DNA of 13,810 bases. Origin: Brevibacterium sp. UMB1308A. GTDB taxonomy: Bacteria; Actinomycetota; Actinomycetes; Actinomycetales; Brevibacteriaceae. Positions 324 through 13,810 of the stretch are shown here, piece by piece. Numbering within the stretch: the stretch's first letter is position 1; each line of letters starts with the position of its first letter. The notes beneath the pieces are model-generated. The model worked only from the letters and a program-made list of their open reading frames with translations. It ran no database searches and had not been told where the DNA came from. The stretch lies in the NCBI RefSeq assembly GCF_030230605.1, contig NZ_JASPDO010000038.1, positions 1-13,810 on the forward strand. Reading direction: 5' to 3'. A program made the translations under genes and the position numbers.

Positions 324-384
324 ACTCGTGGACTCAATGAGCCTTAAATAATTTGAGTTGTGTTTTGTCAACCGAGGAGTACGT

Positions 385-2403
385 GTGGCGCAGACAGGCG
401 AGGAACAACCTCAATCGGGTACACCTAAACCCGTCAAGCAGTTCCGCGCTTCGTCACGGCCCAGCTTTCGGGGACAACACTCCACCTCAGAAAACCAGAA
501 CTCAGCCGGTCAGCGCTCAGAGGTACGCGCGGATCACAGTTCAGCGTCTAACAGCAACGGCTCTGCACCCCAGTTCCGCACCCGCCGCGAACGGCTGGCC
601 AACGAAAACCGCCACCCAGCCCAAACTCCTCCCGCACCGCAAACTCCCCCCGCCCAAACACCAAGCGTCTCGCCTGCACCGGCAAAACCGTCAGCCCCGG
701 CAACTCCCGCTCAAACACCGCCCCACACTCCCAACCAACCTGAACCCCCAGCTTCACGCAATCGACCTGAGTCGGTGAGTGCAAGTGATCACGTCAACGC
801 GGAGCCACCACGGCATGCAAATAATTCACGCGTAAACCTCGCCAATTTGCGGACCCGCAAACCCACGGACGGCGAGCGCCACACAAAACAGCGTTATGAC
901 GCGTTCCCTAAAGTGGTGGGCTGGACAAGCTTGGGCACCCTGTTGCCCGGTTTAGCAATAGTGAGAAAAGACCGCTCCAGTAAATTGGGCTGGTTCCTGC
1001 TCATCGGGTTCTGCGCCGGCATTCTTATCACGGGAATCATGACCCTGGCGCTCGGACCAATCCGCGTGATCGCCCGCGTCATCTCCAGCCCCACCATTTT
1101 GAACATCCTCGCGTTCATGCTGCTGGCAGGGCTGATCATTTGGGTGCTCGTCATCATCCGGTCCTACATCGTCAGCTCCCGCGGTGCCACAATGTCGAAC
1201 CAGCAGCGCGTCCTGTCAGGCGTGCTTGTGGTCTCACTCATGCTGATCGTCGCGATCCCCCTGGGCATCGGTGGAGCCTACTCAAAAGTCTCCAGCAACA
1301 CGGTCTCAAAGATCTTCGGTCCAGACGGCGCACCCGGAGGCACGGGCAAGGAACAAGTATGGGCTGACAAACCCCGCATCAATGTGTTCCTCATTGGACG
1401 TGACAACGGCGAGAACCGCACAGGAACACGCCCTGACACCATGTTGGTCGCCTCGATCGACACCCGCAACGGCAAGAGCACACTCATTTCCGTGCCCCGT
1501 AACCTCACGTACCCCATCTTCCCGGAAGACTCGAAACTCGCCCAGGCGTTCCCTGACGGGTTCAACGCATACGGCGAAGAAAGCCTCATCAACTCAGTGT
1601 GGTCGTGGGCCGAGGACAACCCAGAGTCCGTAGGTGATGCACACGGCCTGGAAACCGGCATGTGGGCAACCATGCAGGCAGTTGAGGGCTCTCTAGACAT
1701 CAAGCTTGACTACTGGGCGTCGGTTGACATGCAAGGTTTCCGGGACCTAGTGAATGCAATGGGCGGGGTCAAGATTGACGTCGAGCGCCCCATTCCCATG
1801 GGTGGTGGTCAAAACCAGCACACAGGAGCGAAGAACCGAATCTTCGGTTGGATCGACCCCGGTGAACAAAAACTCAGCGGGCTACAGGCTTTGTGGTACG
1901 TGCGGTCACGTGACGGGTCAGACAACTACGACCGTATGTGTCGCCAGCAGCGGATGCTCAAAACCACTTTGGAGCAGGTCAACCCATCAGAACTGGCGTT
2001 GAAGTTCCCCCAACTGGCGAACTCCTCAACAAAGAATGTCGCAACGGACATCAACCAGAAGGAACTGGGTGGTTTCGTTGAGTTGGCGTGGGAAATGAAG
2101 AACACCAAGATCAAGTCCGCGCAGATCAACAACGAAGTCACGCCTACGTATCGCCCGGATTACGACGAACTTCACAAGTGGGTCAAGGACCAGATCGACC
2201 CGCAGAAGCCCAGTCAGAAAGAAGAATCCAAGGACAAAGGCAAGGACGAAGAGGAACCTCAGCCCACTGAGGAACCCACAGAAGAAACGGGTGCCCCAGC
2301 GCCTGGTATCGAAGATGACGAGGGCAAGTGCTACCCCTCTGGTTACACCCCCGGTGACCCATGGCCCGGCTACCCTGGGCCAGGTAACCACGGAGACCAC
2401 TGA
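385..2403 (+). CDS. LytR-CpsA-Psr (LCP) family cell-wall polymer transferase
   Basis: Predicted 672-residue membrane protein of the LCP family. These enzymes move polyprenyl-phosphate-linked glycopolymers onto peptidoglycan outside the cell. I start at GTG 385 because GAGGAG (374-379) sits five bases upstream; a TTG at 358 is in frame but lacks such a site. From this start, residues 1-165 are Pro/Gln/Ser-rich and probably disordered and cytoplasmic. Hydrophobic segments lie near 180-193, 203-225, 237-261 and 277-299. The LCP catalytic domain spans about 330-525, with TGTRPDTMLV (Arg349, Asp351), SVPRN (Arg372), DYWASVDM and WYVRSRDGSDNYDR (Arg507, Arg509), all family signatures for pyrophosphate and metal binding. 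The tail (about 600-672) is Lys/Glu-rich, then Pro/Gly-rich. The stop overlaps the next start (TGATG), so the two are probably translationally coupled. The polymer transferred cannot be read from sequence. Confidence 0.93.
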   Translation: MAQTGEEQPQSGTPKPVKQFRASSRPSFRGQHSTSENQNSAGQRSEVRADHSSASNSNGSAPQFRTRRERLANENRHPAQTPPAPQTPPAQTPSVSPAPAKPSAPATPAQTPPHTPNQPEPPASRNRPESVSASDHVNAEPPRHANNSRVNLANLRTRKPTDGERHTKQRYDAFPKVVGWTSLGTLLPGLAIVRKDRSSKLGWFLLIGFCAGILITGIMTLALGPIRVIARVISSPTILNILAFMLLAGLIIWVLVIIRSYIVSSRGATMSNQQRVLSGVLVVSLMLIVAIPLGIGGAYSKVSSNTVSKIFGPDGAPGGTGKEQVWADKPRINVFLIGRDNGENRTGTRPDTMLVASIDTRNGKSTLISVPRNLTYPIFPEDSKLAQAFPDGFNAYGEESLINSVWSWAEDNPESVGDAHGLETGMWATMQAVEGSLDIKLDYWASVDMQGFRDLVNAMGGVKIDVERPIPMGGGQNQHTGAKNRIFGWIDPGEQKLSGLQALWYVRSRDGSDNYDRMCRQQRMLKTTLEQVNPSELALKFPQLANSSTKNVATDINQKELGGFVELAWEMKNTKIKSAQINNEVTPTYRPDYDELHKWVKDQIDPQKPSQKEESKDKGKDEEEPQPTEEPTEETGAPAPGIEDDEGKCYPSGYTPGDPWPGYPGPGNHGDH

Positions 2404-4346
2404 TGGCGCATCTCAGTGTCGCTGTCATTGGTGCCGGCCCACGCGGTCTGTCCGTGTGCGAACGTTTAACCGCCCTGGCACCGGAGTATAAGCACCCGGT
2501 CACTATCCACGTGATCGACCCGTATGCGCCGGGCCCGGGCCGCGTGTGGGACACTGAGCAGTCCCCTGAACTGCTCATGAACACCACCATCAGTGAGCAA
2601 ACGATTTTCCCTGACGGTTCGTGCGATATCTCCCCTACGAACACCGGCCCGTCCATGCGCGACTGGTACCTAGCTACTGACGGCACAGAAGACCCTGACA
2701 CCACGTTCTGTTCGCGCACCCTGTACGGCGAATATCTGTCTGATGCGTTTGCCCGCGTCCGCGAAAACGCGACGGAAAACGTCACAATCGAAGTCCACCG
2801 TGCCCAGGCTTTGCGTATCGCTGACCCCGGTTCCCCTGTTGAGCTGTCCCAGATCGTGCGCTTGTCCGATGACACCTCGGTCACGGTCGATGCCGTTGTG
2901 TTGTGTGTGGGCCACATTCCGTCCCGTCTCACTGACGAGCGCATCCAGTTAGACCGCTACGCCACTGCCAACGGCCTGAACTACTGCCCGCCGTCGCTCC
3001 CGGCGGAAACCCCTGTCGACCGGGTTGCTGCAGGTGAGACCGTCATTTTCCGTGGCTTTGGGCTCAACTATTTTGACTTACAGGCGTTGTTGACCCACGG
3101 CCGAGGTGGCACCTTCGTCCCGCGCACCCCTTCCCCTGACCGTGGTGGTAAGTGCGAGCCCTGGGAGTTGGAATATGTTCCCAGCGGCAAGGAGCCTGTT
3201 CTTGCGCCCAGTTCACGGCGGGGTATTCCGTACCGGTGCAAGCCGGTGACGCCTGATCACCCCATGGAGCCGTACGCTTTGCGGTTTTTCACTGAAGACA
3301 ACGTCACCACATTGTCCAGCGGGAAGCTTCTGCACTTCGATGATCAGTTGTGGCCGTTGATTCTCACGGATCTGCGGTATGCGTGGTACGCAGCCCTGTA
3401 CCGCAGCCAGCCGGAACTGTTTTTGCGTGACCCGGCCCCGTTGAAGGAGGCGTTGACCGAGGCGGTCGACCGGCACCTTGCCCGGCGCTCGGGTGCGGAG
3501 ACCCAGGGGCGTGTGACGGGGCGTGAGACCCATGAGGCTCCTGCACTACACGAAGTCCTCGATTCGGTGGTTCCACGTGAGCACCAGCTGGATCTGCAAG
3601 CGCTTTTACGTCCTCTTAACGACAAAGAGTTTGAGAGCCGGGACCAGCTGACAGCGTGGATTAACGGCTTCCTCGAACAGGAACTCCGGGACGCGTACGC
3701 GGGGCCGGAGTTGGCTCCGAGCAAAGCAGTTTTTGCTGTTTTGTGGGCTGCGCGCAGCTTCTTGAAGGAACTTGTGGCTGACGGCCGGGTGAGTCCCGCC
3801 AGCTTTGCGACCGAGGTGCGAGGCTGGTTTGAATCTTTTGTTTCCGGCATCTGTGATGGGCCGCCACCACAACGGTTCGCTGAGTTGTTGGCGCTGAGCA
3901 AGGCGGGCCTGGTGACGTATGTTGGCCCGCAGGTGAAAATCGACACCAGTGATGAGGAACCTGCATTCATTGCCTCGACGCCGGCCGTAAAAGGGGACAT
4001 CGTTGCCCACAACCTGATCGATGCAGCTTCGCCCACTAATCACATTCGGTTAGCTGATGACGAGTTGATCACGTCCATGTTGGATCGTGGGCAGCTCACT
4101 GTCGCAACGATCACTAGCGATGAAGGTACCCTGTTGCCCACCTCGGGCCCGTTAGTCGAACCCGCCACGTTGCGCACAGTCGATTCCCGAGGGCGGGTTC
4201 ACCCAAACCGGTACGTCATGTCGATTCAATTGTCGTCGCTACAACTGGGCTTGGCGATCGCAGCAAACCCGGACTCTAATGCTCGGACCCTGCGCGACGC
4301 TCACGGCGTTGCCCGTCGCATTTACGGCCTGGAATCAGAGCGCTAA
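2403..4346 (+). CDS. FAD/NAD(P)-binding protein (NAD_binding_9-like)
   Basis: Predicted soluble flavoprotein of 647 residues. The N-terminus has a Rossmann dinucleotide-binding motif, VAVIGAGPRG (Gly10, Gly12, Gly15), and an acidic end to the second strand (VIDPYAPGPGRVW). Further features of this family are LLMNTT near 58-62, DAVVLCVGH near 163-171 and GETVIFRGFGLNYFDLQ near 211-227. Proteins of this type are commonly annotated only as FAD/NAD(P)-binding (Pfam NAD_binding_9); their substrates are mostly unknown. No signal peptide or membrane segment is visible, so it is probably cytoplasmic. The ATG overlaps the LCP stop by one base, with GGAG about ten bases upstream. This tight coupling suggests a role linked to the envelope, but that is inference. 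Transcription probably ends at the hairpin just downstream. Confidence 0.85.
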   Translation: MAHLSVAVIGAGPRGLSVCERLTALAPEYKHPVTIHVIDPYAPGPGRVWDTEQSPELLMNTTISEQTIFPDGSCDISPTNTGPSMRDWYLATDGTEDPDTTFCSRTLYGEYLSDAFARVRENATENVTIEVHRAQALRIADPGSPVELSQIVRLSDDTSVTVDAVVLCVGHIPSRLTDERIQLDRYATANGLNYCPPSLPAETPVDRVAAGETVIFRGFGLNYFDLQALLTHGRGGTFVPRTPSPDRGGKCEPWELEYVPSGKEPVLAPSSRRGIPYRCKPVTPDHPMEPYALRFFTEDNVTTLSSGKLLHFDDQLWPLILTDLRYAWYAALYRSQPELFLRDPAPLKEALTEAVDRHLARRSGAETQGRVTGRETHEAPALHEVLDSVVPREHQLDLQALLRPLNDKEFESRDQLTAWINGFLEQELRDAYAGPELAPSKAVFAVLWAARSFLKELVADGRVSPASFATEVRGWFESFVSGICDGPPPQRFAELLALSKAGLVTYVGPQVKIDTSDEEPAFIASTPAVKGDIVAHNLIDAASPTNHIRLADDELITSMLDRGQLTVATITSDEGTLLPTSGPLVEPATLRTVDSRGRVHPNRYVMSIQLSSLQLGLAIAANPDSNARTLRDAHGVARRIYGLESER

Positions 4347-4348
4347 GG

Positions 4349-4388
4349 CTGGCGGCCTAGCTACCCCTCTGAGCAACTAGGCCGCCAG
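4349..4388. terminator. 12-bp hairpin between convergent operons
   Basis: CTGGCGGCCTAG (4349-4360) pairs perfectly with CTAGGCCGCCAG (4377-4388) around a 16-base loop. It starts three bases after the flavoprotein stop and lies 42 bases from the yhgE-like stop on the other strand. It has no U-tract on either strand, as is common in actinobacteria. A bidirectional terminator is likely. Confidence 0.75.
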
Positions 4389-4429
4389 TTCAACGTCCAC
4401 GCGACTTCTCCGCGTGATCCACCCGTGGT

Positions 4430-7063
4430 CTACGCGTGGGCGACAGACGCTACGGACTTCACGCTCCGGGCGCGCGCAACCGCAACAACCGATGCGCCAA
4501 CACCTAGCAGGAGCCACAGGAACAGCGTGCCCCATGCCCCACCGGCACCGGGTGTGCCAGTCACAATCGCAACAGCACCCTCGATTCCGTGTGCAGGCGG
4601 CATGAACCCTGCCAGACCGGTGAGCACCTGAGGTGGGGTGGTGAACAAGTGCGCGGCCACGGCCACCACAATCATGACCAGTGAGATCATCTGACCGAAA
4701 GCACCAAACAGTCCCACCAGCGCAAAATTCAACACGGTGAACACGAGGCTGGCAAACAGTGCGAACGCAAACAAGTGAACACCCTTGGAGACCGGAATGT
4801 CCATGACCGGGACTGCCAGCGCAGTAACCAACAACGCCTGAACAGCCGCAACAGCCAAGCCGGGTACCAGACCGCGGAGCATGATCGCTACGCTGCTTCG
4901 GCGTGAGGTCAGCGCTGTCGCTGAGACTGCGCGCACCACCGTGTAGGTGAGGAGCGAGCCAACCCACAGGGCCAAGATCAACATGTGTACAACGGCTTGT
5001 GCCAGCGCTCCGTTCACGAACTTGGTGCTCGAACCGTCGATCGCAGCGGAAACCACAGTGGACAGTTTGTCGCGTTCTGGAGCAGTGTAGCTGGGGATCT
5101 TTTCCTTGCCTTCTTCGATCCCGTCAGCAAACTTGCCGGTTCCATCTGCGAGTTTGTCGGCGCCGTCGGCCAGCTGCCGGGTTCCGGTGCTGAGCTTCTG
5201 AGCCCCGTCGGCGGCTTGCGAAACACCAAAAACGTACTGGCGGAGACCTCGGGACAGTTCGTGTCCACCGTCTGACAGCTTGTCAGCCCCGTCGGAAAGT
5301 TTCACGGCACCGTCCGAAAGCTTTTTGGAGCCGTCGGCGGCTGTTCCGATTCCGTCTACCAGCGGTCCGGTTCCCTTTGCGAGCTTGCTGGTTCCATCCG
5401 CCAGTTTCTGTGAACCGTCGACCAGTTTGTCGCCGTTCTTTGACAGTTTGTTCGCCCCGTCAGACAGGTCACTAGCGCCCTTGCGCAACTGCTTGGAACC
5501 GTCCAGCAGTTGGTCGGTGCCCTTCTTGAACTTATCCAGTTTCTGTTCCAGTTCGTCCAAGTTCTTCCCGACGTCACCCAAGTCGATGTTCTTGTACTTG
5601 TCGAGCGTTTTCTTAATCTCGGTGATGTGTTCGTTGATGCGCTTAGCAGCTTCGTCCAGCGATTCGGAACCGTCAATGATGGACTTACCCGTCGAAGGGT
5701 CCTTCTTGTCGAGCCCGTCAGCTGCGGACTTCAGGCCTTTGACATACCCGTTGACCAGCCCAGACACGTATGCGCTTTCAACCACATCGCATGCTGGGTC
5801 CTTCGTGCCTTCAGGCAGTTTCTGGCAGATCTTGCCACGGATCTGTGCGGCCTGGTCCTGAGTGATAATGCCCAGCTTTGCCGCCTGGTTCAGATTGGTG
5901 ACCTTGCTGGCATCAATCTTTTTCGCCTGAGCGCGCAGTTCCTTTTGGTACTCCGAAAGCCCACTCTTGAGGCTTTCGATACCTTTTTTGAAACGCTCCA
6001 AGTCTTTTTCGTTGTCTGCGATCTTATTGAGCCCATCGGAGTTCTGCAGTTTCCGCAGTTCATCCAGGTCAATTTTTTCAAGTTCAGCCGTGAAGTCGCG
6101 GACCTTAATAACGACGTCATCAATGTTGCCGGTGTACTCGTTGACACCCTTGGACAGTTCGCCGGCTCCGTCAGCAAGTTGGTCCACTCCGCCGGTGTAC
6201 TTTTCAACACCGTCTGACAGGTCCTTTGCACCCTTAGCAAGCTGCTGACTTTGCTTAGGCAGGTCCTTGGTTTTGGTCTTCATTTCGCCGAGGCCGTTAG
6301 ACAGTTGGCTAGCCCCGTCGGAGAGGTCTCCCGCTCCCTTAGACAGCGCCCCGGCACCGTTGGCAAGTTGGGTCGCTCCACTAGTGAGTTTGCCGCCGTT
6401 GGCGTCAAGCTGCCCGAGGCCGTTAGACAGTTGGCCGGCCCCGTCGGCAAGTTCTGAAGTTCCGTGGGACAGTTGCCCCGCACCGTCGTTGAGTTCGCCG
6501 GCCGCGTCACTCATGGTGCGCATTTGGTCCTTCATGTCGTTGAACCCAACGAACACATTGTCAAGGAACTTTTCACTCATGTCCGTGTTGAATTTGGTAC
6601 GCGCAGCATCAATGAGTGCACGTGAAACCACCGCGTTGTTCACGGGAGAGACGTCTGAGGTTTGCACCCGGATCGTCGCTTGCTTGACGTCCATGGGGTC
6701 GTCTTTTGCGGTGGAGAGAACTTCGCGTGAGAAACCTTCGGGGATGGTGACGACAGCGGCATACTTCCCGCTTTCAAGACCTTCTTGGGCGTCCTCGTCA
6801 GTCGATTGCACCCAGCGATAGTTTTCCGTATCCATGTCGACGAGCGCTGCAGAAAGCTGGCGGCCCATGGGGACGCGTTTGCCGTCAATCTCGGTTCCGT
6901 CGTCGTTGTTCACAATCGCTGCGGTGATCTCACCAAAACGGTCGTCGGCTCCACGGGTCGCAAGAACAAAGCCACCCGCGATGAGAACCGGCACAAGGAT
7001 GAGACCAACGAGCGACCACAGGGTTACTCGTTTCCCTGAAAATGCTCTTTCTAGAATTGGCAT
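4430..7063 (-). CDS. YhgE/Pip family membrane protein with LSDG-type repeats
   Basis: Predicted 877-residue membrane protein. One N-terminal membrane segment (about 14-36) leads to an extracytoplasmic domain, and five or six C-terminal segments (about 686-708, 728-753, 762-784, 790-806, 845-863) resemble an ABC-2 permease. This is the YhgE/Pip plan, shared with Lactococcus phage-infection protein Pip and with YueB/EsaA of type VIIb secretion. The outer domain has two blocks of LSDGA/LADGA/LSNGL units (about 188-308 and 515-650), predicted to form a long helical stalk. Between them is a charged segment with only two cysteines (413, 425), which could form a disulfide. ATG 7063 overlaps the preceding TAA (TAATG) and has a strong GGAGGA site, so translation is coupled to the MMPL gene. 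The role is probably export or envelope assembly; the substrate is unknown. Confidence 0.9.
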   Translation of the reverse strand: MPILERAFSGKRVTLWSLVGLILVPVLIAGGFVLATRGADDRFGEITAAIVNNDDGTEIDGKRVPMGRQLSAALVDMDTENYRWVQSTDEDAQEGLESGKYAAVVTIPEGFSREVLSTAKDDPMDVKQATIRVQTSDVSPVNNAVVSRALIDAARTKFNTDMSEKFLDNVFVGFNDMKDQMRTMSDAAGELNDGAGQLSHGTSELADGAGQLSNGLGQLDANGGKLTSGATQLANGAGALSKGAGDLSDGASQLSNGLGEMKTKTKDLPKQSQQLAKGAKDLSDGVEKYTGGVDQLADGAGELSKGVNEYTGNIDDVVIKVRDFTAELEKIDLDELRKLQNSDGLNKIADNEKDLERFKKGIESLKSGLSEYQKELRAQAKKIDASKVTNLNQAAKLGIITQDQAAQIRGKICQKLPEGTKDPACDVVESAYVSGLVNGYVKGLKSAADGLDKKDPSTGKSIIDGSESLDEAAKRINEHITEIKKTLDKYKNIDLGDVGKNLDELEQKLDKFKKGTDQLLDGSKQLRKGASDLSDGANKLSKNGDKLVDGSQKLADGTSKLAKGTGPLVDGIGTAADGSKKLSDGAVKLSDGADKLSDGGHELSRGLRQYVFGVSQAADGAQKLSTGTRQLADGADKLADGTGKFADGIEEGKEKIPSYTAPERDKLSTVVSAAIDGSSTKFVNGALAQAVVHMLILALWVGSLLTYTVVRAVSATALTSRRSSVAIMLRGLVPGLAVAAVQALLVTALAVPVMDIPVSKGVHLFAFALFASLVFTVLNFALVGLFGAFGQMISLVMIVVAVAAHLFTTPPQVLTGLAGFMPPAHGIEGAVAIVTGTPGAGGAWGTLFLWLLLGVGASVVAVARARSVKSVASVAHA
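5114..5521 (-). repeat. Second LSDG repeat block in the yhgE-like gene
   Basis: Codons 515-650 encode successive short units such as LRKGASDLSDGANKL and AVKLSDGADKLSDGG, mostly with 7- or 11-residue spacing. At DNA level this gives many near-copies of GTCGGAAAG and CCGTC on the plus strand. The repetition makes the region prone to slippage and to length variation between strains. Confidence 0.8.
6140..6502 (-). repeat. First LSDG repeat block in the yhgE-like gene
   Basis: Codons 188-308 encode units such as LNDGAGQLSHG, LADGAGQLSNG and LSKGAGDLSDG. They belong to the same repeat family as the second block, but about 200 non-repetitive residues lie between the two. Such Gly-Ala helical repeats are typical of the outer domain of YhgE/Pip proteins. 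Confidence 0.8.
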
Positions 7064-9927
7064 TACTGTGCTCCTCCAAACGCATGAGCAGGAACGTGTT
7101 CGGTACGGTTGTGATCGTCCAAGTTCAACAAGGTGTAGTCCATTCCGCTGGGAATCATCCAGTCAACGTCCGGGTTGTGCAATCCCAGAATCACTGCTGA
7201 GCCACGGGCAGTAGCAACATCAACCAGGTTCTTTATAGCCTTCGCAGTGGCGTGGTCGTTCGGGGCATCAGCGTGGTCAATGACGACAACGGGCGGAAGC
7301 TTCTTGATGAACCCGCGGATGTACTCAGGCTTTGGCACCAACGCGTCCTCACTGTGTCGTAACGTCAAGAATGGGGTGGAACGACGAACCTTGTTCGCCT
7401 GTTCCGGTAGAACGTATTCGCCCACTTTCAGCTCCCCGTCTTCCAACGGCGCACGCCCGGCAAGTGCCAAGAGCAAGGCGGTACGACCTCGGCCGCTCAC
7501 CGCTAACAACTCACCCGGTTGCAACGCCACATTGACGTCCTCAAACAGTGGTCCGCCGGTTCCGTACACGCTCAAGTTTTCGCCGTAGATCCGGTAGTCG
7601 GTGTCGGTTTCTGGCCAGTTCTGTAGCTTCACCTGGTGGTACAGACCCTCCCCTTCCACGTCGAAGTGCGGAAGGATGCGTTCCAACCACTTGGGCAGCC
7701 ACCACGCGTGCTCACCCAGCAGGGTCATAACGGCTGGAACCAGGGTCATGCGCACAAGGAACGCATCGACGGCAATACCAACGGCCAAGCCCAGCGCGAT
7801 CGACTTAATGATGGCCTCACCGGTGGGCACGAATGCCGCGAACACGCAGAACATAATGATTGCCGCGGCAGTCACCACAGACGCCGAGCTCATGAAGCCC
7901 TTCTTCACAGCCTCGCGAGCGGGTGTTCCGTGCGCATACGCCTCACGCATACCCGACACCAAGAACACTTCATAGTCCATGGCCAGACCGAACAGAATAC
8001 CCATGAGAATAATGGGCAAGAAGCTGATCACTGGGCCAACGTGATCCAGGTTGAGCGCAGTTGCGCCGTGTCCTTCGATGAACACCAGCTCAACCACACC
8101 GAACCCGGCAATCACAGATAAAAGGAACCCTGCGGTGGCCTTGATGGGAACCCACAATGACCTGAACACCATCATGAGCAACACCAGCGACAGGCCCACG
8201 ACGAACAGACCAAACGGCACAAGCGCGCGCCCCAGCTGAGCCGACACGTCAATCGCAACTGCCGTCGCACCGGTCACTGCGGTTTGGTAGCCGTACTTTT
8301 CTTTGATCTTGGGCTCCATGTCGCGGAGCTCTTCCACGATTTTTTCGGTCTCAGGGTCACTGGGACCTGTTTCTGGAATGATCTGGAACATGGCCGTGTC
8401 TGCATTTTCGTTAGGTACGGCCAGGATGACCTTTTTGACACCAGGGATCTTCTTGATCTCATCTTCGATCTTTTCGACGTCGTCCAGAGGGTCGTCACTG
8501 GTGACAATTTCGGCGGTCATGACCAGTGGTCCGTTGTGGCCGGGGCCAAATTTTTTGTCGATCAAGTCAAAGGTTGTACGCGCCGGGGTTCCTTCCGGCT
8601 GACCACCGTTGTCAGGCAACGCGAGCTGAAGTTTAGATGCCGGGATCGCGAAAACGCTCAAGGCACCCACGACCACAATGATGGTGATGAGTGGGAACTT
8701 GGTCGCGGCCGTCACCCAGCCCCGGTAGAACTTGGTTGCGAACGTTTCCTTCTGGGCGAGGTTGGAACCTTCCGCCAAGGAGGTTGCCGTTGCTGTCTGA
8801 TCGGCAGGTTTTCCGTTTTTAGCTTGGTTCTTAGCCGCTTTCTTTTGAGCTTTCTTCTGAGCCTTGCGTAACGGGTTGATGCGTTCGCCAATGAAGCCCA
8901 GGATCGCGGGCACAAGAGTCAGAGCGACTCCTACTGCAACCGCCACGGTCGCGGCTGCACCGAATCCCATGACTGCCAGGAATGGCATTCCGGTGAGTGA
9001 GAGTCCCACGAGCGCAATGATCACAGTGATCCCTGCAAACACCACAGCCGAACCAGCTGTAGCGTTTGCGCGCGCGACTGATTCTTCTGCGTCGTGGCCT
9101 TCGAGCATAAAGGAGCGGGCACGGGAAATGATGAACAGCGCGTAGTCAATACCCACCGCAAGCCCCAGCATGAGTGCCAGCATGGGGGCGGTAGATGACA
9201 CGGTTGAAAACGCGGTGAGCCCTACGATGCCCAGCAGTCCGATAATCACACCGACAACTGCGGTGACCAGGGGAACACCGGCGGCTAGCGCTGAACCAAA
9301 AGTGAAAAGTAGCACGCAGAACGCGATCGCTACACCGATACCTTCAACCCACGAAATGTGGACACTGGTGGTTTTGAAGACTTCTCCACCCGCGCTGACC
9401 GTGGATCCTTCAGGGAGGGCGTCGCGGAGTTGGTCGGTTTGCTTTTGGAGGGTTTCACGGTCTTCGTCCGTGAGTTCTTCAACCGGCGAATCGTACGACA
9501 CGTTGATGATGGCCGCGTTCTTATCGTCATTGATGTTGCCGTGTACGTGTTCACTAAACGGTGAGGTCACACCCTCAACGTTCTCCACGTCTTCGAGACG
9601 CTCAACCGCGTTTTCGATCTCCTTCTTGTATATCCCCTGGTCCACGCTCTCATTGTTGGCACTCACCACGATGATGTCTGCGCGCGCGCCGGATGCTTGC
9701 GGGAACGTGAGTCTCATCGAGTCAAGAGCTTCCTGCGACTCTGCACCAGGCAGTTCGAACTTGTCGTCGAACTTGTTAGCAAAGAGCCCCACAAAAGCAC
9801 CCATTAACACGATGATCAGCAGCCACACACCGGAAGTGACAAGGCGATGCCGGTATGTTGCGCGACCTAATCCATAGAGAAAAGAAGACACAGATTCGCT
9901 TTCGGTTGCTTGGGGAGATCGAGCCAA
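7063..9927 (-). CDS. MMPL/RND transporter with C-terminal pseudo-ABC ATPase domain
   Basis: Predicted 954-residue exporter. Two MMPL halves are visible: a membrane segment at 31-50, an outer loop to about 190, a membrane bundle at 195-350 containing DYALFI (Asp261), a Lys/Ala-rich cytoplasmic linker (354-380), a second loop, and a second bundle at 565-735 containing DYEVFL (Asp651). These DY motifs mark the proton relay of MMPL proteins, so transport should be proton-driven. Residues 778-940 then resemble an ABC nucleotide-binding domain (GENLSVYGTGG, VNVALQPGELLAVSGRGRTALL, VVVIDHAD, VILGLHN), but the key residues are lost. The start is TTG 9927 without a clear ribosome site; GTG 9891 is an alternative. 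A TGA lies just upstream in frame. It is first in an operon with the yhgE-like gene and divergent from TetR. The substrate is unknown. Confidence 0.9.
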   Translation of the reverse strand: MARSPQATESESVSSFLYGLGRATYRHRLVTSGVWLLIIVLMGAFVGLFANKFDDKFELPGAESQEALDSMRLTFPQASGARADIIVVSANNESVDQGIYKKEIENAVERLEDVENVEGVTSPFSEHVHGNINDDKNAAIINVSYDSPVEELTDEDRETLQKQTDQLRDALPEGSTVSAGGEVFKTTSVHISWVEGIGVAIAFCVLLFTFGSALAAGVPLVTAVVGVIIGLLGIVGLTAFSTVSSTAPMLALMLGLAVGIDYALFIISRARSFMLEGHDAEESVARANATAGSAVVFAGITVIIALVGLSLTGMPFLAVMGFGAAATVAVAVGVALTLVPAILGFIGERINPLRKAQKKAQKKAAKNQAKNGKPADQTATATSLAEGSNLAQKETFATKFYRGWVTAATKFPLITIIVVVGALSVFAIPASKLQLALPDNGGQPEGTPARTTFDLIDKKFGPGHNGPLVMTAEIVTSDDPLDDVEKIEDEIKKIPGVKKVILAVPNENADTAMFQIIPETGPSDPETEKIVEELRDMEPKIKEKYGYQTAVTGATAVAIDVSAQLGRALVPFGLFVVGLSLVLLMMVFRSLWVPIKATAGFLLSVIAGFGVVELVFIEGHGATALNLDHVGPVISFLPIILMGILFGLAMDYEVFLVSGMREAYAHGTPAREAVKKGFMSSASVVTAAAIIMFCVFAAFVPTGEAIIKSIALGLAVGIAVDAFLVRMTLVPAVMTLLGEHAWWLPKWLERILPHFDVEGEGLYHQVKLQNWPETDTDYRIYGENLSVYGTGGPLFEDVNVALQPGELLAVSGRGRTALLLALAGRAPLEDGELKVGEYVLPEQANKVRRSTPFLTLRHSEDALVPKPEYIRGFIKKLPPVVVIDHADAPNDHATAKAIKNLVDVATARGSAVILGLHNPDVDWMIPSGMDYTLLNLDDHNRTEHVPAHAFGGAQ
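7108..7596 (-). other. Degenerate ABC-ATPase-like domain fused to MMPL
   Basis: This encodes residues 778-940 of the MMPL protein. The Walker A counterpart is SGRGRTALL (811-819), with Arg where the catalytic Lys should be. Walker B reads VVVIDHAD (880-887), with His after the Asp in place of the catalytic Glu. No LSGGQ signature is present, but an H-loop-like VILGLHN (His917) remains. It may bind nucleotide weakly, or act as a structural partner for YhgE. Confidence 0.7.
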
Positions 9928-9944
9928 GCGGGCTCAACCACTTT

Positions 9945-9975
9945 TTGTGAACTTTAAGTTTGTACTCGATACAAT
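9945..9975 (+). promoter_or_regulatory. Candidate tetR promoter
   Basis: TTGTGA (9945-9950) and TACAAT (9970-9975) are 19 bases apart, a little long, and read toward the TetR gene. The -10 lies inside the inverted repeat at 9966-9985, which would let the repressor block its own transcription. The divergent operon promoter must use the same 99-base gap, but I cannot choose one -10 for it. Confidence 0.4.
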
Positions 9976-9985
9976 ACTGTATCGA
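9966..9985. promoter_or_regulatory. Probable TetR operator
   Basis: TCGATACA (9966-9973) and TGTATCGA (9978-9985) form a perfect 8-bp inverted repeat around ATAC. It lies midway between the divergent starts of tetR (10027) and the MMPL gene (9927), the usual place and size for a TetR-family operator. Binding there would control both directions. The palindrome is seen; the binding is inferred. Confidence 0.75.
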
Positions 9986-10026
9986 AAACATTTGAGTTTT
10001 AAAGAAGTATTCAGAAAGAGCCCCCG

Positions 10027-10800
10027 ATGACCCTCCACCCTGGCGTAGCACCAACCGCCCGTCGGCAGCGAACACGCAACCGTCTCCTCGGGGCGGCAGT
10101 GACTGCTTTTGCCCGCAACGGCATTGTCAGCACGCCCATCGAAGAGTTGTGCGAAGAAGCCGGCATGACACGTGGAGCTTTCTACTCAAACTTCACATCA
10201 ACCGACGAACTCGTGGTGAATCTCATTGACTGTGCCGTTGAACACACCATCGCCGGAATCCGGGGAGTCATCGCAACCACCGAAGACACGTACTCAACAG
10301 ACCAAGCCACACACACCTCGGACCCCAGCACACGCTTCATCAACCTACGCAAGTCCGCCAAGACCGCATTCACCACACAACGCCTAGGCTGGACCACCTC
10401 GGTCGCGTGGACCATCACGGAAGCCGAAATCGAGCTTTACTCAATTCGCAACCCCGACGTCCGCGAACGCTACCTGGAATTACAGAACGCACAGGTGCGG
10501 GCAGTGGGAGTGGAAGTCGAACAGCTCCTCGCACGGCACGGCGCACGCACCACGATTCCTATCCAAACCGCGATCCGACACCTCGCCGCGACCGACATTC
10601 GGACGGCACGCCAGTCCATCCCACCTCGGGCAGTTGAGCTTGCACCCACTCCGGACGCCAGCGAACTGGTCTCCCACATCATGGGCAAGCCCGGAGCAGC
10701 TTTCGACACATCCAAGCTTCCTGAACACTCACTGTTGCACCCGGTCGAACGCGACTTAGGGCCTGTACTGGACCTCCTGAGCATGATGGTGGAGTTTTAG
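10027..10800 (+). CDS. TetR family transcriptional regulator
   Basis: Predicted DNA-binding repressor of 257 residues, longer than the usual 190-220. Residues 12-60 form the TetR N-terminal domain: RRQRTRNRLLGAAVTAF as helix 1, then a helix-turn-helix with TPIEELCEEAGMTRGAFYSNF, where MTRGAFYSNF is the typical recognition helix. The rest is a helical ligand and dimer domain with no recognisable ligand signature. ATG 10027 is chosen as the first start in the helix 1 frame; a weak AAAGAG lies about eight bases upstream. The gene diverges from the MMPL-yhgE operon across a 99-base gap with a palindrome, so autoregulation and control of that operon are likely. The inducer is unknown; a lipophilic substrate of the exporter is a reasonable guess. 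Confidence 0.92.
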   Translation: MTLHPGVAPTARRQRTRNRLLGAAVTAFARNGIVSTPIEELCEEAGMTRGAFYSNFTSTDELVVNLIDCAVEHTIAGIRGVIATTEDTYSTDQATHTSDPSTRFINLRKSAKTAFTTQRLGWTTSVAWTITEAEIELYSIRNPDVRERYLELQNAQVRAVGVEVEQLLARHGARTTIPIQTAIRHLAATDIRTARQSIPPRAVELAPTPDASELVSHIMGKPGAAFDTSKLPEHSLLHPVERDLGPVLDLLSMMVEF

Positions 10801-10815
10801 GGGGCATAAGACCGT

Positions 10816-10821
10816 TAGGCT
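10816..10821 (+). promoter_or_regulatory. Leaderless-type promoter -10
   Basis: TAGGCT ends six bases before the ATG at 10828, and no Shine-Dalgarno sequence intervenes. A TAnnnT hexamer at this spacing puts the transcript start on or next to the A of ATG, as in leaderless actinobacterial genes. No clear -35 is visible. Confidence 0.5.
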
Positions 10822-10827
10822 GAAAAC

Positions 10828-11796
10828 ATGAGTGATCACGCGAATGAATTTTCGACCTTCATGGCAAGCATGCCCCTGCGACTCACCTCGTTCATCGAGT
10901 CTGACCTACCTGAATCGGTGACGCTTGAGAACGACGAAACGCGCGAATTCCGCAAAGACCTCTCCCCTGCCTCGCTCCCGTGGATTGAAGCGTTCGCCAA
11001 TTCTGTCCTGGCGTCTCCCGCGGTGGCCGTAGCGCCAGAAAACCAGAAGTTCACAGAAAACCTCATGCGGTATGTGGGCGAGGTTTTCCTGCGTGGGCTG
11101 GGCGGCGCGTGGGACTACGATGAATCCGGCGAGGTGGGCGAAGGTTTCCCGTTTATTCGCCCCGACTCACCGGACGGGGAGTGTGAAGGTGAACCGATCT
11201 CGATGATCGGCCTCGTGATGACCGCGTTGCAGGCACGCAACGGGCAAGTGTTCATCAGTCGCTATGCGCAAGAGCTGGAGAAGTTCGGAGAAGACGGGCC
11301 GCGTCGTTCCTGTTCAGCCGTGGATGACACTGCTGACGGTGGGGCTGGGGCGCCTATGGAAGAAGAGGAACGTAGCTTCTTGGCCACGTTCCTCCCCACG
11401 GTTGAGTCCGGGGTTGCCGCGTGGGTTCAGGATCAGGCTGCGCCACACGAATGGACATTTGGCACAGAAGGCCTGCTCAAACTGAGCAAGCAACTTGTTG
11501 CCCGGTACTCAACGGTGGATGAGATGCTCGCTGATAGATCAGACTTCTACATTCAGGGCGCCCTGCGGTTTGCCGGCGAAACTTTCCGCCGGGAAGGCAA
11601 AGGCGCGTGGCGCTACGGGACTCGGTTCGACACCGACGACCCGCGACAGAAGCAACCGTTCGTCCACTTCTCCCAGATCGAGGTGGACGTGGTCCCGTGG
11701 GCGATTCTCACCTCGGCGTTCAAAGACCCCCACGCGCCTTCCGAGGCCTTGGACGCACTGCGTTCGCAAGTGGCCGGCGCGGAGGCGGGCGCCTAG
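10828..11796 (+). CDS. Hypothetical protein with internal duplication
   Basis: I do not recognise a named family. The 322-residue protein is acidic, has no signal peptide or membrane segment, and is probably cytoplasmic. It consists of two related halves. About residues 50-150 contain FTENLMRYVGEVFLRGLGGAWDY, then GFPFIRP. About residues 215-305 contain GALRFAGETFRREGKGAWRY, then QPFVHF. The halves share the pattern G-E-x-F-R-x-G-x-GAW-x-Y followed by PF(I/V), and are joined by an acidic linker (160-182). The start is ATG 10828, 27 bases after tetR; a -10 hexamer six bases upstream and no ribosome site suggest leaderless translation and separate transcription from tetR. It converges with the C45-family gene, leaving a 10-base gap. 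A function cannot be assigned. Confidence 0.85.
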   Translation: MSDHANEFSTFMASMPLRLTSFIESDLPESVTLENDETREFRKDLSPASLPWIEAFANSVLASPAVAVAPENQKFTENLMRYVGEVFLRGLGGAWDYDESGEVGEGFPFIRPDSPDGECEGEPISMIGLVMTALQARNGQVFISRYAQELEKFGEDGPRRSCSAVDDTADGGAGAPMEEEERSFLATFLPTVESGVAAWVQDQAAPHEWTFGTEGLLKLSKQLVARYSTVDEMLADRSDFYIQGALRFAGETFRREGKGAWRYGTRFDTDDPRQKQPFVHFSQIEVDVVPWAILTSAFKDPHAPSEALDALRSQVAGAEAGA

Positions 11797-11806
11797 CTCT
11801 GTGGCC

Positions 11807-12889
11807 CTAGTTCTGCGAGACCGTGAAGCTCACGGTCATGTCCGACGCGAACTGGGGCGCGCCTGGGCTCAGGTCGATGCGGCGGTTGGCAGGGTCGATG
11901 CGCACGGTCACCAGTGTGGCGCCTTTGTTGGGTGCAGCTGGATCCGGGAGCACGCTGACCAGGCCGTCTTCCAGCGGTGAGCACAGAACCTGCAGCATGT
12001 CGTCCAGGCCGTGTGGTTCCCCCGCCGAGGTGGTCGCCGCCTCCAGGTAGTCCATGCGGTCGTGCGTGTTGGAGTCGGGGGTCAGCAGTTGCGCGCCGTC
12101 TGTTTGGCTTGGGCATGCGAAGTGGTTGGTGCGTAGTGCCCAACCGTCGCGTGAGTTGAGCGCCACTTGGTGTGGGTTGATTTCCATGTTGACGGCCCGG
12201 TTGCGGTCAAGGACGGTGATGATTGAGGACGCCGAGGTGGGCGCGTCCTTGGCGATGCTGATGGCTTCGTCAACTGAGCTGGCGGCGCTAAGGATCCGGG
12301 CGAGTACCGCGTGGATGGGCACACCTCCGGGGGCATCGTCGGCGTTTTTGAGGATGTTCAGGTGGACGCCTAGTCCGGCGGAGTTGAGGCCGATTTTCCC
12401 GGTCATACCGTGTTCGGCGAAACCTGCGTAGGACTGGCCGCCGGGCAGGGCCGCGACACGGTGGAAGTGCCAGTTGCGCACCAGTTCGGGTTTCCAGTCC
12501 CAGGTTTGGGCCGACATGGTTCGGCCGAGCTGTTGGAACGTCACGGTGCTGCATTCTTGTGGCTGTTCTTTTGCCAGTGTGAGGATTTCGGTTCGCCCCA
12601 CGATGAGACCCAGGTCTGCCGCGGTGATACCGGATCCGGCGGCTACGCCCAGAAGTTCGAGGTGTTGGTCGGGGTCCCAGTTGCGGATCGCATCCATGGA
12701 TGCGCGCGCGGCTGCAGTGGCATCTGTTTCGGAAATTCCTTGTGTGGAGTAGAGCTCGCTGTACGCGCGCACGGTTGCGCGGATGTGTGCTGCGATTTGC
12801 GAGGCTCTGGCCATTCCGCGCTGCCGAGGTTCTGTACCGTCTACGTAGATCGTCTCGGTTCGAACCAGATGCGGTTGGTTTTTCTTCAT
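11807..12889 (-). CDS. Peptidase C45 / acyl-CoA:6-APA acyltransferase-like Ntn hydrolase
   Basis: Predicted 360-residue autoproteolytic Ntn hydrolase related to fungal isopenicillin-N acyltransferase (family C45). The family cleaves itself before an internal Cys, which becomes the nucleophile. Here Cys113 in QPQECSTVTF is the candidate, after LIVGRTEIL (Arg99), and is followed by SAQTWDW, GMTGKIGLNSAGLGVHLNIL and TNHF, all hallmarks of the family. The residue before Cys113 is Glu, where fungal enzymes have Gly. No signal peptide is seen, so it is probably cytoplasmic. ATG 12889 is chosen because GGGAGG lies five bases upstream; the frame stays open to 13183, but that stretch is repeat DNA. 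Candidate activities are N-acyl transfer or amide hydrolysis of an unknown substrate; antibiotic synthesis is not implied by any neighbour. Confidence 0.87.
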   Translation of the reverse strand: MKKNQPHLVRTETIYVDGTEPRQRGMARASQIAAHIRATVRAYSELYSTQGISETDATAAARASMDAIRNWDPDQHLELLGVAAGSGITAADLGLIVGRTEILTLAKEQPQECSTVTFQQLGRTMSAQTWDWKPELVRNWHFHRVAALPGGQSYAGFAEHGMTGKIGLNSAGLGVHLNILKNADDAPGGVPIHAVLARILSAASSVDEAISIAKDAPTSASSIITVLDRNRAVNMEINPHQVALNSRDGWALRTNHFACPSQTDGAQLLTPDSNTHDRMDYLEAATTSAGEPHGLDDMLQVLCSPLEDGLVSVLPDPAAPNKGATLVTVRIDPANRRIDLSPGAPQFASDMTVSFTVSQN

Positions 12890-12937
12890 TGATCCTCCCG
12901 GTGCCACTTGGGTCTGCAGTGCGTGTGGCTTGCAGGG

Positions 12938-12943
12938 CTTATA
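12938..12943 (-). promoter_or_regulatory. Candidate -10 of the C45-family gene
   Basis: On the minus strand TATAAG (in GGAATATAAGCC) lies about 50 bases before the ATG at 12889. The -35 position holds TACGGG, which is weak. It is the most AT-rich hexamer between the hairpin at 12975-13011 and the gene. Confidence 0.3.
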
Positions 12944-12974
12944 TTCCGTATGGCCTTTAGCCCGTAGAGCCTGT

Positions 12975-13011
12975 CGCTTTCTGGCCACCATACATGGGAA
13001 CGGCCAAAGCG
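12975..13011. repeat. Hairpin upstream of the C45-family gene
   Basis: CGCTTT and GGCC (12975-12980, 12983-12986) pair with GGCC and AAAGCG (13002-13005, 13006-13011), giving ten base pairs with a two-base bulge. It lies between repeat module copy 1 and the gene's candidate promoter. It may be a terminator or the outer edge of the module. Confidence 0.45.
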
Positions 13012-13021
13012 AAACGGCGCA

Positions 13022-13173
13022 CCACCCGTGCAGAAGCCGTTTACCCAACACAGTTCGATCCCCTGTGTTGAGCAAACGCTCTTTTTGTTCGTTTTGTTTA
13101 CGTTTTCGGCCCAAAATCGGCCAGTTACCCAACACAGCAAACGAAAGGCAGCTCACCTGTGGTGAGTAACTGG
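13022..13173. repeat. Structured repeat module, copy 1
   Basis: The module has three parts. Hairpin 1 pairs 13038-13053 with 13063-13078 (14 of 16 positions). The core, 13081-13128, matches 13570-13617 in 45 of 48 bases and includes TTTTTGTTCGTTTTGTT and CCAAAATCGGCCAGTTAC. Hairpin 2 pairs 13121-13137 with 13157-13173 (15 of 17 positions). The arm sequence ACCCAACACAG occurs in both hairpins. CCACCC near 13022 begins the shared part. I see no supported gene inside it and do not recognise the family. Confidence 0.85.
13038..13086 (+). terminator. Hairpin followed by T-run (module copy 1)
   Basis: The stem CGTTT plus CAACACAG pairs with CTGTGTTG plus AAACG around a nine-base loop and a 3x3 internal loop. 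It is followed by CTCTTTTT (13079-13086) on the plus strand. It has the form of an intrinsic terminator, but no plus-strand gene leads into it. Confidence 0.4.
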
Positions 13174-13189
13174 GTTGGAGCAAATAGGG

Positions 13190-13373
13190 GAACGATGACC
13201 CGACACATCACTACACAAAAAATCTCAGGACATCGAGTGAACAATGTTCCGAGACTTCACAACGCCGCGAGTGTGGCGTCTGGTTCAGGACATCGTTCAC
13301 CTTTAAACCCGTGAACCCGCCAGCAGGTGTGTCACGACATCGTTCTGCTCATGTGTCGCGTCATCGTTCACAC
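13190..13373. repeat. Cluster of degenerate IS481-like motifs
   Basis: Six related motifs with the core GAACGATGTCC / GGACATCGTTC lie within 184 bases: plus-oriented at 13190-13206 and 13237-13263, minus-oriented at 13224-13242, 13285-13300, 13331-13345 and 13354-13371. The second and third overlap head to head. From memory, clustered motifs of this type sit at the ends of IS481-family elements in actinobacteria. No transposase is present, so this is probably a relic or a landing site. Confidence 0.5.
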
Positions 13374-13488
13374 CCCGGACCTTTACCCTAGAGCTTCTCT
13401 CCCGAACTGATGACAGTAATGCACCGACCACCACGGCCAGCAGAGTGCCCCGAACAGGTGCGGCCACCTCGACCCCAAAGCGTAAGTG
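13372..13488 (-). pseudogene. Possible remnant of a membrane-protein gene
   Basis: One minus-strand frame encodes RFGVEVAAPVRG followed by a hydrophobic stretch, TLLAVVVGALLSSV, and a basic tail (RERSSRVKV). It looks like a single membrane helix with a positive flank. No start codon or ribosome site belongs to it, and it is bounded by repeat module copy 2 and the IS-like motifs. It could be a gene fragment or chance. The rest of 13374-13514 shows nothing I can name. Confidence 0.2.
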
Positions 13489-13514
13489 GCTCCAGTCGAA
13501 TCTGCCTACTGTAG

Positions 13515-13660
13515 CCACCCAGAACCCGTTTACTCTACAACCCTCGAACAGGATTGTAGAGTAAACACCCTTTTTGTTCGTTTTGTTCACGTTTTTGGGC
13601 CAAAATCGGCCAGTTACTCTACAACCCTCGAGAAAAATGAACTTGGAGTGTAGAGAAAAC
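13515..13660. repeat. Structured repeat module, copy 2
   Basis: Same plan as copy 1. Hairpin 1 is a perfect 13-bp stem: GTTTACTCTACAA (13528-13540) with 13554-13566. The conserved core is 13570-13617. Hairpin 2 pairs CTCTACA (13617-13623) with TGTAGAG (13649-13655), with GTT/AAC at the base. The arm GTTTACTCTACAACCCTCGA (13528-13547) recurs at 13613-13631 with one T missing. Relative to copy 1, an A-T pair has become T-A in both hairpins (13047/13069 versus 13536/13558, and 13131/13163 versus 13620/13652). Confidence 0.85.
13528..13575 (+). terminator. Hairpin followed by T-run (module copy 2)
   Basis: A perfect 13-bp stem with a 13-base loop is followed by ACCCTTTTT on the plus strand. It is the strongest terminator-shaped element in the right-hand region. 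No plus-strand gene ends here, so it may end a small RNA or act as part of the module. Confidence 0.45.
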
Positions 13661-13680
13661 CACCTGACACGCCCAACCCA

Positions 13681-13757
13681 TACACACATTTTGAGCATTA
13701 ACCCCATTATGATGCGTAGTTTCGCTCGCTTTGGGGTTATAGGCCAAAAAGTGTGTA
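13681..13757. repeat. Long imperfect hairpin
   Basis: TACACAC (13681-13687) pairs with GTGTGTA (13751-13757), TTTTG (13689-13693) with CAAAA (13745-13749), and TAACCCCA (13699-13706) with TGGGGTTA (13732-13739). That makes 20 base pairs with a single mismatch and a 5x5 internal loop, enclosing a 25-base apical loop. It could be a small non-autonomous element or an RNA structure. No family is recognised. Confidence 0.6.
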
Positions 13758-13794
13758 CGGTAGGGGCTTCTTGCCCAGTGTTCCGTAGGGCTTC
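13758..13794 (+). repeat. Short direct repeat at the right end
   Basis: CGGTAGGGGCTTC (13758-13770) recurs as CCGTAGGGCTTC (13783-13794) just after the long hairpin. A related string, TTCCGTATGGCCTTTAG, occurs at 12944-12960. The last 16 bases of the window show nothing further. Confidence 0.35.
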
Positions 13795-13810
13795 AGGCGG
13801 TTATACATGC

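Follow-up and report, generated by a model that had tools for sequence, protein, structure and literature searches.

The two hairpin modules towards the right end of the window (the whole 13,810-nucleotide stretch of Brevibacterium sp. UMB1308A DNA that was analysed) are probably copies of a lineage-specific, dispersed and mobile intergenic repeat which resembles the REP and BIME elements, and in which copies of one arm class replace copies of another. We favour this reading because the repeat is dispersed, is present at some sites and absent from their counterparts, comes in two arm classes that differ at some orthologous sites, occurs as single-hairpin derivatives and carries an insertion sequence (IS) in its hairpin loops.

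The two copies in the window

A first-pass annotation, made from the letters of the sequence, had described two structured modules 489 bp apart that share a 48-bp core while their hairpin arms co-vary. A repeat search of the window recovered 13031-13134 and 13520-13623 as a pair (79% over 104 bases) with the same spacing of 489, and comparison by eye of 13081-13128 with 13570-13617 gave 3 differences, in agreement with the 45 of 48 identical positions claimed. The two base-pair flips on which that annotation rested, A13047/T13069 against T13536/A13558 in hairpin 1 and A13131/T13163 against T13620/A13652 in hairpin 2, are also correct on the sequence. Copy 1 has unpaired changes as well, with A13043 opposite C13073 and C13045 opposite A13071 in hairpin 1, and C13129 opposite A13165 and A13132 opposite G13162 in hairpin 2. 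A covariance model that includes both copies matched copy 1 at 13038-13177 (136.5 bits) and copy 2 at 13527-13666 (147.4 bits). The parts of the two copies are as follows.

13037..13173, + strand: copy 1 of the double-hairpin repeat, C class, from CCG to TGG (sequence)
13039..13053, + strand: copy 1, hairpin 1 left arm (arm 1), GTTTACCCAACACAG (sequence, alignment)
13063..13077, + strand: copy 1, hairpin 1 right arm (arm 2), CTGTGTTGAGCAAAC (sequence, alignment)
13082..13106, + strand: copy 1, T-rich linker, the best-kept block of the family (mean pairwise identity 0.94)
13108..13122, + strand: copy 1, small GGCC...GGCC hairpin (70.5% of cells paired)
13124..13137, + strand: copy 1, hairpin 2 left arm (arm 3), GTTACCCAACACAG (sequence, alignment)
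13157..13170, + strand: copy 1, hairpin 2 right arm (arm 4), CTGTGGTGAGTAAC (sequence, alignment)
13526..13660, + strand: copy 2 of the double-hairpin repeat, T class (sequence)
13528..13539, + strand: copy 2, hairpin 1 left arm, GTTTACTCTACA (sequence)
13555..13566, + strand: copy 2, hairpin 1 right arm, TGTAGAGTAAAC (sequence)
13571..13595, + strand: copy 2, T-rich linker (sequence, alignment)
13613..13623, + strand: copy 2, hairpin 2 left arm, GTTACTCTACA (sequence)
13649..13660, + strand: copy 2, hairpin 2 right arm, TGTAGAGAAAAC (sequence)

A dispersed family in two sister species

Among the genomes compared, the window was closest to G001 (23% of sampled words in common), which is taken as Brevibacterium mcbrellneri ATCC 49030 and is a draft of ~100 contigs. 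The second genome that holds the family, G026, belongs to a sister of B. mcbrellneri in the same genus and is a single contig of 2.41 Mb; both are genomes of skin bacteria. Copies in the window's own strain were counted within the window. The T-rich linker pattern, allowing up to 3 mismatches, occurs at 20 places in G001 and 21 in G026, and its reversed control gave 0 matches in these two genomes. With up to 2 mismatches it was found in none of the 55 other Brevibacterium genomes, leaving 2 of the 57 genomes of the genus positive. A search of 99 genomes with copy 1 returned multiple copies in G001 and G026 and only 18-30 base matches (E 0.02-0.09) in the six further genomes among the matches listed, and an exact pattern run across a collection of genome contigs was found in B. 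mcbrellneri only, in 14 stretches.

The covariance-model search for homologues that had been proposed in the first-pass annotation found the family in G001 and G026 and, beyond them, one weak match in 57 genomes. The model was built from 39 copies and scored candidates of a first look, at most 57 per genome, under strict filters that weak relatives may escape; among the candidates scored there were 23 matches in G001, 24 in G026 and the weak one in G005. All 20 and 21 linker places are among these matches, and the extra ones in G001 and G026 are weak, one lying near a single hairpin in L108 and the others being opposite-strand echoes of the palindromes. The G005 match looks like chance, as it is devoid of any arm and would by eye pass for coding sequence.

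Altogether 43 copies were read out, including the 2 in the window, and the 39 intact ones form alignment A1, from which four IS-interrupted copies (two in L074 and one each in L077 and L098) are omitted. The copy set includes orthologs and its members are not independent. Arm 4 of L087 is shifted by one base in A1, so that this copy is counted as mixed though its arm 4 letters are of the T class, and L103, which has a G at the class position, is counted as T. The repeat is ~145 bases long and consists of hairpin 1, the T-rich linker and hairpin 2, with arm 1 (GTTTAC...), a loop of ~15 bases, arm 2, the linker, the GGCC hairpin, arm 3, a loop of ~25 bases and arm 4 following one another. Both hairpins have the same orientation (arms + - + -), and the GGCC hairpin pairs more weakly than these main hairpins. 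Mean pairwise identity over the 39 intact copies is 0.94 for the linker, 0.70-0.84 for the arms and 0.57 and 0.46 for the loops. That the linker is the best-kept part is unexplained by a purely hairpin-based account.

Reading frames, as called mechanically, overlap 5 of the 43 copies. In G026 the spread is uneven, with no linker match from 1.85 Mb to the end or in the first 190 kb, ~31% of the chromosome. For 38 of the 43 copies a frame was called on either side, and these frames are convergent in 14 cases, same-direction in 19 and divergent in 5 (mechanical calls), a placement that would suit a host-function palindrome at gene ends, serving at the transcript end or in nucleoid or gyrase binding as proposed for REPs. 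The bias is weak, however, with 22 of 38 hairpin-1-side neighbours directed towards the element; a simple scan of 12880-13810 found no promoter-like or terminator-like site, and an intrinsic terminator was rejected on the same scan. As several sites also differ between the sister species, a host function is an unlikely explanation of the repeat.

Arm classes and orthologous sites

The arms fall into two classes, CTCTACA (T class) and CCCAACA or CCCACCA (C class). The two hairpins of a copy agree in class in 35 of the 39 (Fisher p ~8e-7; copies not independent), and the share of the classes differs between the two genomes, with 16 TT to 2 CC in G001 (16 TT among 19 intact copies) against 4 TT to 11 CC in G026 (Fisher p 0.0004; again with copies not independent). 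The tails of the arms had been said to match within a copy but not between copies. This stands for the window, where CAG follows both left arms of copy 1 and ACCCTCGA both left arms of copy 2, but across the family it is a tendency and not a rule, the 4-base tail being exactly shared in 14 of 39 copies. The match exceeds permutation in the 14 C-class copies, some of them near-identical to each other, and is not above permutation in the 20 T-class copies (permutation p 0.35).

Orthologous sites were compared via their flanks. The class is kept at four orthologous pairs, namely L070/L101, L075/L090, window copy 2/L089 and L084/L088 (only the upstream flank of the last aligns, from 115-186 bases away), and this retention would count against a mobile repeat with class replacement. 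Elsewhere the class differs. L071 (C) stands against L093 (T), with two copies there in G001, each matching one flank; two neighbouring L074 copies (C) stand against L100 (T), one aligning with both flanks and the other with one, the IS replacing its second flank. L080 and L099 differ in class at hairpin 1 only, with ~146 extra bases upstream in L099, and L085 and L102 differ too, their flanks aligning only from some 90-330 bases away. At L100, a C-class hairpin-2 remnant is readable beside one T copy, which would suit the overwriting of a C copy by a T copy.

Empty sites were also found, with L078 filled and L031 empty, and L081 filled and L119 empty. At the site of the window, copy 1 is absent from G026, which has no counterpart there of copy 2 or its flank either; G001 has copy 2 (138 of 138 aligned bases identical) and, where copy 1 would lie, a single hairpin in which arm 1 is followed by the hairpin-2 loop and arm 4. 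A second single hairpin lies in L108, with arm 1 fused to the hairpin-2 loop, and deletion between the direct repeats formed by arm 1 and arm 3 would account for both.

Close to its edges the element has inverted repeats, namely the outer arms, and a near 6-base repeat, GCGAGC/GCGGGC, flanks the insert at L078/L031, as would befit a miniature element (MITE) of a conventional DDE transposase with arms 1 and 4 as its terminal inverted repeats (CCGTTTAC...GTAACTGG). At L081/L119, by contrast, no flanking repeat was seen and the left edge of the insert lies ~25 bases further out. A target-site duplication could not be pinned down at the two empty sites and their left edges differ, so that these sites do not demonstrate insertion by a single defined enzyme, a point against the mobile-repeat reading as well. 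Moreover, the inner arms 2 and 3 are conserved to the same degree as the outer ones, and outside the copies the exact arm patterns in G001 and G026 occur as one inverted pair around a transposase, which is an IS3-family element whose own ends sit inside the hairpin. We therefore consider a MITE of this kind doubtful, at about the same level as a host function.

An IS3-family element in the hairpin loops

The element lies in G026 between two arms 1.48 kb apart. Its transposase matches NCBIfam transpos_IS3 (E 8.8e-93) and Pfam rve and HTH, and the features of the IS3 family were found, these being a transposase with an rve core, short inverted ends and a short target duplication. The three copies in G026 are identical over 1439 bases, which points to recent IS activity in this C-rich sister. 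In G001 only IS pieces were seen, with one partial relative at 86% and one distant at 37%; two pieces run off contig ends after 106 bases each, and whole copies may hide in the gaps of the draft.

When up to 3 mismatches were allowed, G001 and G026 together gave 5 left and 5 right IS ends. Of these 10, 9 abut a hairpin loop, the exception being a diverged end on G001 contig C31. The arms flanking all nine loop-abutting ends are of the C class by eye. The L118 copy is bounded by a clean 3-base duplication, AAT. The flanks of the two other G026 copies (C1 1270956-1272394 and 1329813-1331251, in opposite orientation and ~57 kb apart) mismatch, yet match when exchanged (GAT with GAT, TTC with TTC), a pattern that would be consistent with a ~57 kb inversion by recombination between the two copies. 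Six insertion sites are discernible if no further exchange is assumed. When interrupted copies are included, the C-class share is 15 of 21 in G026 and 6 of 22 in G001, and all six sites would be of the C class by chance at ~0.007, a rough figure since the sites also enter the shares.

We rejected the repeat being a deletion derivative of the IS3 element, as the IS ends (TGGACTGC...AGTCCA) are unlike the arms and lie within the loop. A known insertion-sequence end explaining the whole module, against which the first-pass annotation had set its proposal, was not found either, because the IS sits inside the loops and the hairpins are not made by it. Given the nine IS ends in C-class hairpins, the C-rich G026 with its recent IS and the T-rich G001 with its pieces, the arm classes themselves could have been shaped by the IS, using a double-hairpin element that is without a RAYT as its target. 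On this view, by switching class across its four arms the repeat would escape the IS, and a candidate mobiliser would have to accept both classes via the T-rich linker. The position of the G001 pieces at contig ends lowers the probability of this scenario, which we regard as distinctly improbable.

Pairing, covariation and the RNA question

The co-variation had been taken to argue for selected structure, or for conversion among arms. A structured RNA (cis-regulator or small RNA), with stems selected pair by pair, is in line with several of the measurements. Compared with dinucleotide shuffles, the window copies have the better folds (z -2.8 for copy 1 and -3.6 for copy 2). Over the 39 copies, 103 double-change cells were counted against a shuffle mean of 58.7, and the covariation score was 0.188 against 0.103 in shuffles, neither value being reached in any of 500 shuffles; the conservation of the linker is also strong. 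The drawn structure pairs 78.4% of cells in these copies, against 32-42% after a shift of one side by 1-3 columns, so that its pairing is well beyond chance. Some selection on the palindromes is therefore likely, which counts against the mobile-repeat reading.

Other measurements speak against selection of the stems as RNA. Double changes occur in 18 pairs, a number that 45 of 500 shuffles attain, and 473 of 500 attain the 36 further pair types. RNAalifold predicted only 5 pairs on the 39 copies, an outcome that weakens a common RNA structure and also the drawn structure, and the minimum-energy folds of both window copies are without hairpin 2 as drawn, part of which appears in the centroid of copy 2. 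Within the arms, 48 of 60 double-change cells fall at two class-defining positions (22 of 27 in hairpin 1 and 26 of 33 in hairpin 2). The arm pairs of the 20 TT copies are free of double changes, and in the 14 CC copies a single arm pair shows them (A-T to C-G, 4 cells, three of them in near-identical copies). The double changes being mostly at class positions and absent from the TT set, the two flips noted between the window copies are one old class difference present in both hairpins. The stem extensions are more variable, with double changes and 40-66% Watson-Crick cells. A.C mismatches exceed G.U in the hairpin-1 arms (18 against 2), which leaves selection on RNA unsupported, with the caveat that RNA from the - strand would read A.C as G.U; the hairpin-2 arms show no difference (10 against 8). 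Uncompensated arm changes, named in the first-pass annotation as the finding that would speak against it, are frequent, with 287 of 1326 cells unpaired. At the gathering cut-off, Rfam matched only a tRNA-Ser in the window and nothing at the modules, and both the scan for promoter-like and terminator-like sites and the differing sites between species also tell against an RNA. A structured RNA selected pair by pair is thus very unlikely. The comparison with relatives favours conversion, and replacement among copies would account for the co-variation better than RNA selection, because class replacement, empty sites and single-hairpin derivatives all occur at orthologous sites.

Comparison with known palindromic repeats

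The Brevibacterium repeat shares with REP, BIME and REPIN elements its short intergenic palindromes, several copies, doublets, mosaics with other repeats and use as an IS target. REPIN doublets are mostly of one sequence group and seldom mixed (PMC3116915), and on that description they show the same pattern as the class concordance found here. The two hairpins of the Brevibacterium repeat share an orientation, unlike the inverted doublet of a REPIN, and its linker is more conserved than its hairpins, in which it differs from REPs and REPINs alike. REPs usually exceed 100 copies per genome according to a second report (PMC2817692), whereas here there are ~20; so few copies for a REP family count against the mobile-repeat reading. 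So does the result for the Y1 transposase domain (PF01797, E 0.001), which was found in neither of the two genomes, G001 (a draft) and G026, and in 5 of 14 known genomes in a control search. A RAYT or IS200-type mobiliser was rejected on this result, and a RAYT may have been present formerly and later lost.

No GTAG tag common to all copies beside the stem was seen by eye on A1; GTAG lies inside the stem in T-class right arms and, again by eye, is absent from C-class arms (TGTTGAG, TGGTGGG). The repeat is a dispersed, multi-copy intergenic palindrome as the GTAG-REPs are, and judged on the features tested it falls outside that family. It would appear to work like a REP or BIME, while the GTAG, Y1 and doublet features do not show it to be one.

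Insertion into REP palindromes has been reported for IS1397, ISKpn1 and ISPsy8 of the IS3 family and for IS621 and ISPpu9 of the IS110 family, and resembles that of the Brevibacterium IS. For ISPsy8, an IS3-family element described as highly selective for palindromes, 5 of 5 copies lie in REPs (PMC1525189). The case described here differs in the bacterial group, in an unrelated palindrome, in insertion into the loop and in nine loop-abutting ends in one class. The CGTC-tagged palindromic repeats, whose dedicated transposase is seemingly absent (PMC3733652), are alike in being a palindromic family seemingly without such an enzyme; the Brevibacterium repeat differs in having two hairpins on a fixed linker, and no CGTC tag was seen at its hairpin ends on a casual look. 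In literature of mostly open-access scope, we found no such repeats by title or start of abstract for B. mcbrellneri, no palindromic-repeat or MITE work on Brevibacterium and, in the text portions searchable, no REP, RAYT or REPIN work naming Actinobacteria.

Neighbouring sequence

Between the two copies, the segment 13190-13369 of the window carries a MITE-like 19-base inverted pair that is 95% complementary (GAACGATGACCCGACACAT / ATGTGTCGCGTCATCGTTC), and its first part follows several double-hairpin copies at other loci. A second palindrome, AAGTCTCGGGACATCG...CGATGTCCCGAGACTT, lies at 13221-13257 and 1-23 of the window and at 1399-1438 of L120, and recurs beside copies. In L120 it is 6 bases from a tRNA-Ser (tga) at 1304-1392, and at the start of the window part of a copy likewise adjoins a tRNA-Ser; it resembles a terminator hairpin that is shared. 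Upstream of four copies (L084, L085, L086 and L072) there is a third repeat of hairpin-like form, GGCGCAAAGCGAGCGAAACTGCGC...GCGCAGTTTCGCTCGCTTTGCGCC, one arm of which matches window 13712-13733 at 21 of 22 bases. The intergenic regions look like mosaics. The genes at 358-12889 of the window are, by Pfam, LytR-CpsA-Psr, FAD/NAD(P)-binding, an ABC-2 membrane protein, MMPL, TetR and an acyl-transferase (AAT), and the frame 10828-11796 gave no Pfam match. The ABC-2 membrane protein has a long coil-like middle, and its gene has DNA repeats spaced in multiples of 21.

Proposed spread and turnover

We propose that a candidate enzyme recognising the palindromic arms, and perhaps the linker, would spread the copies of the mobile repeat, and that these would overwrite each other by recombination, by conversion or by insertion into older copies. 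On this reading the arms would co-vary mainly through inheritance and replacement of the palindrome as a unit, and not through RNA selection on each copy, and the IS would use the hairpin loops to land in. The data do not distinguish conversion from a new insertion on top of an older copy. A structured RNA, a DDE-transposase MITE and a host function can each overlap with a mobile repeat. Phage or plasmid origin was rejected, with no plasmid match and 0 occurrences of one exact pattern in viral contigs.

These modules serve as a worked example: what looks like covariation between two copies stems mainly from switching between classes that already existed and is no evidence for RNA, a trap for scans of sequence. 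They add to Brevibacterium a palindrome family that varies in presence and absence between sister species, although both genomes are without the usual REP transposase, and an IS3-family element whose chosen loops have so far all belonged to a single class of the palindrome.
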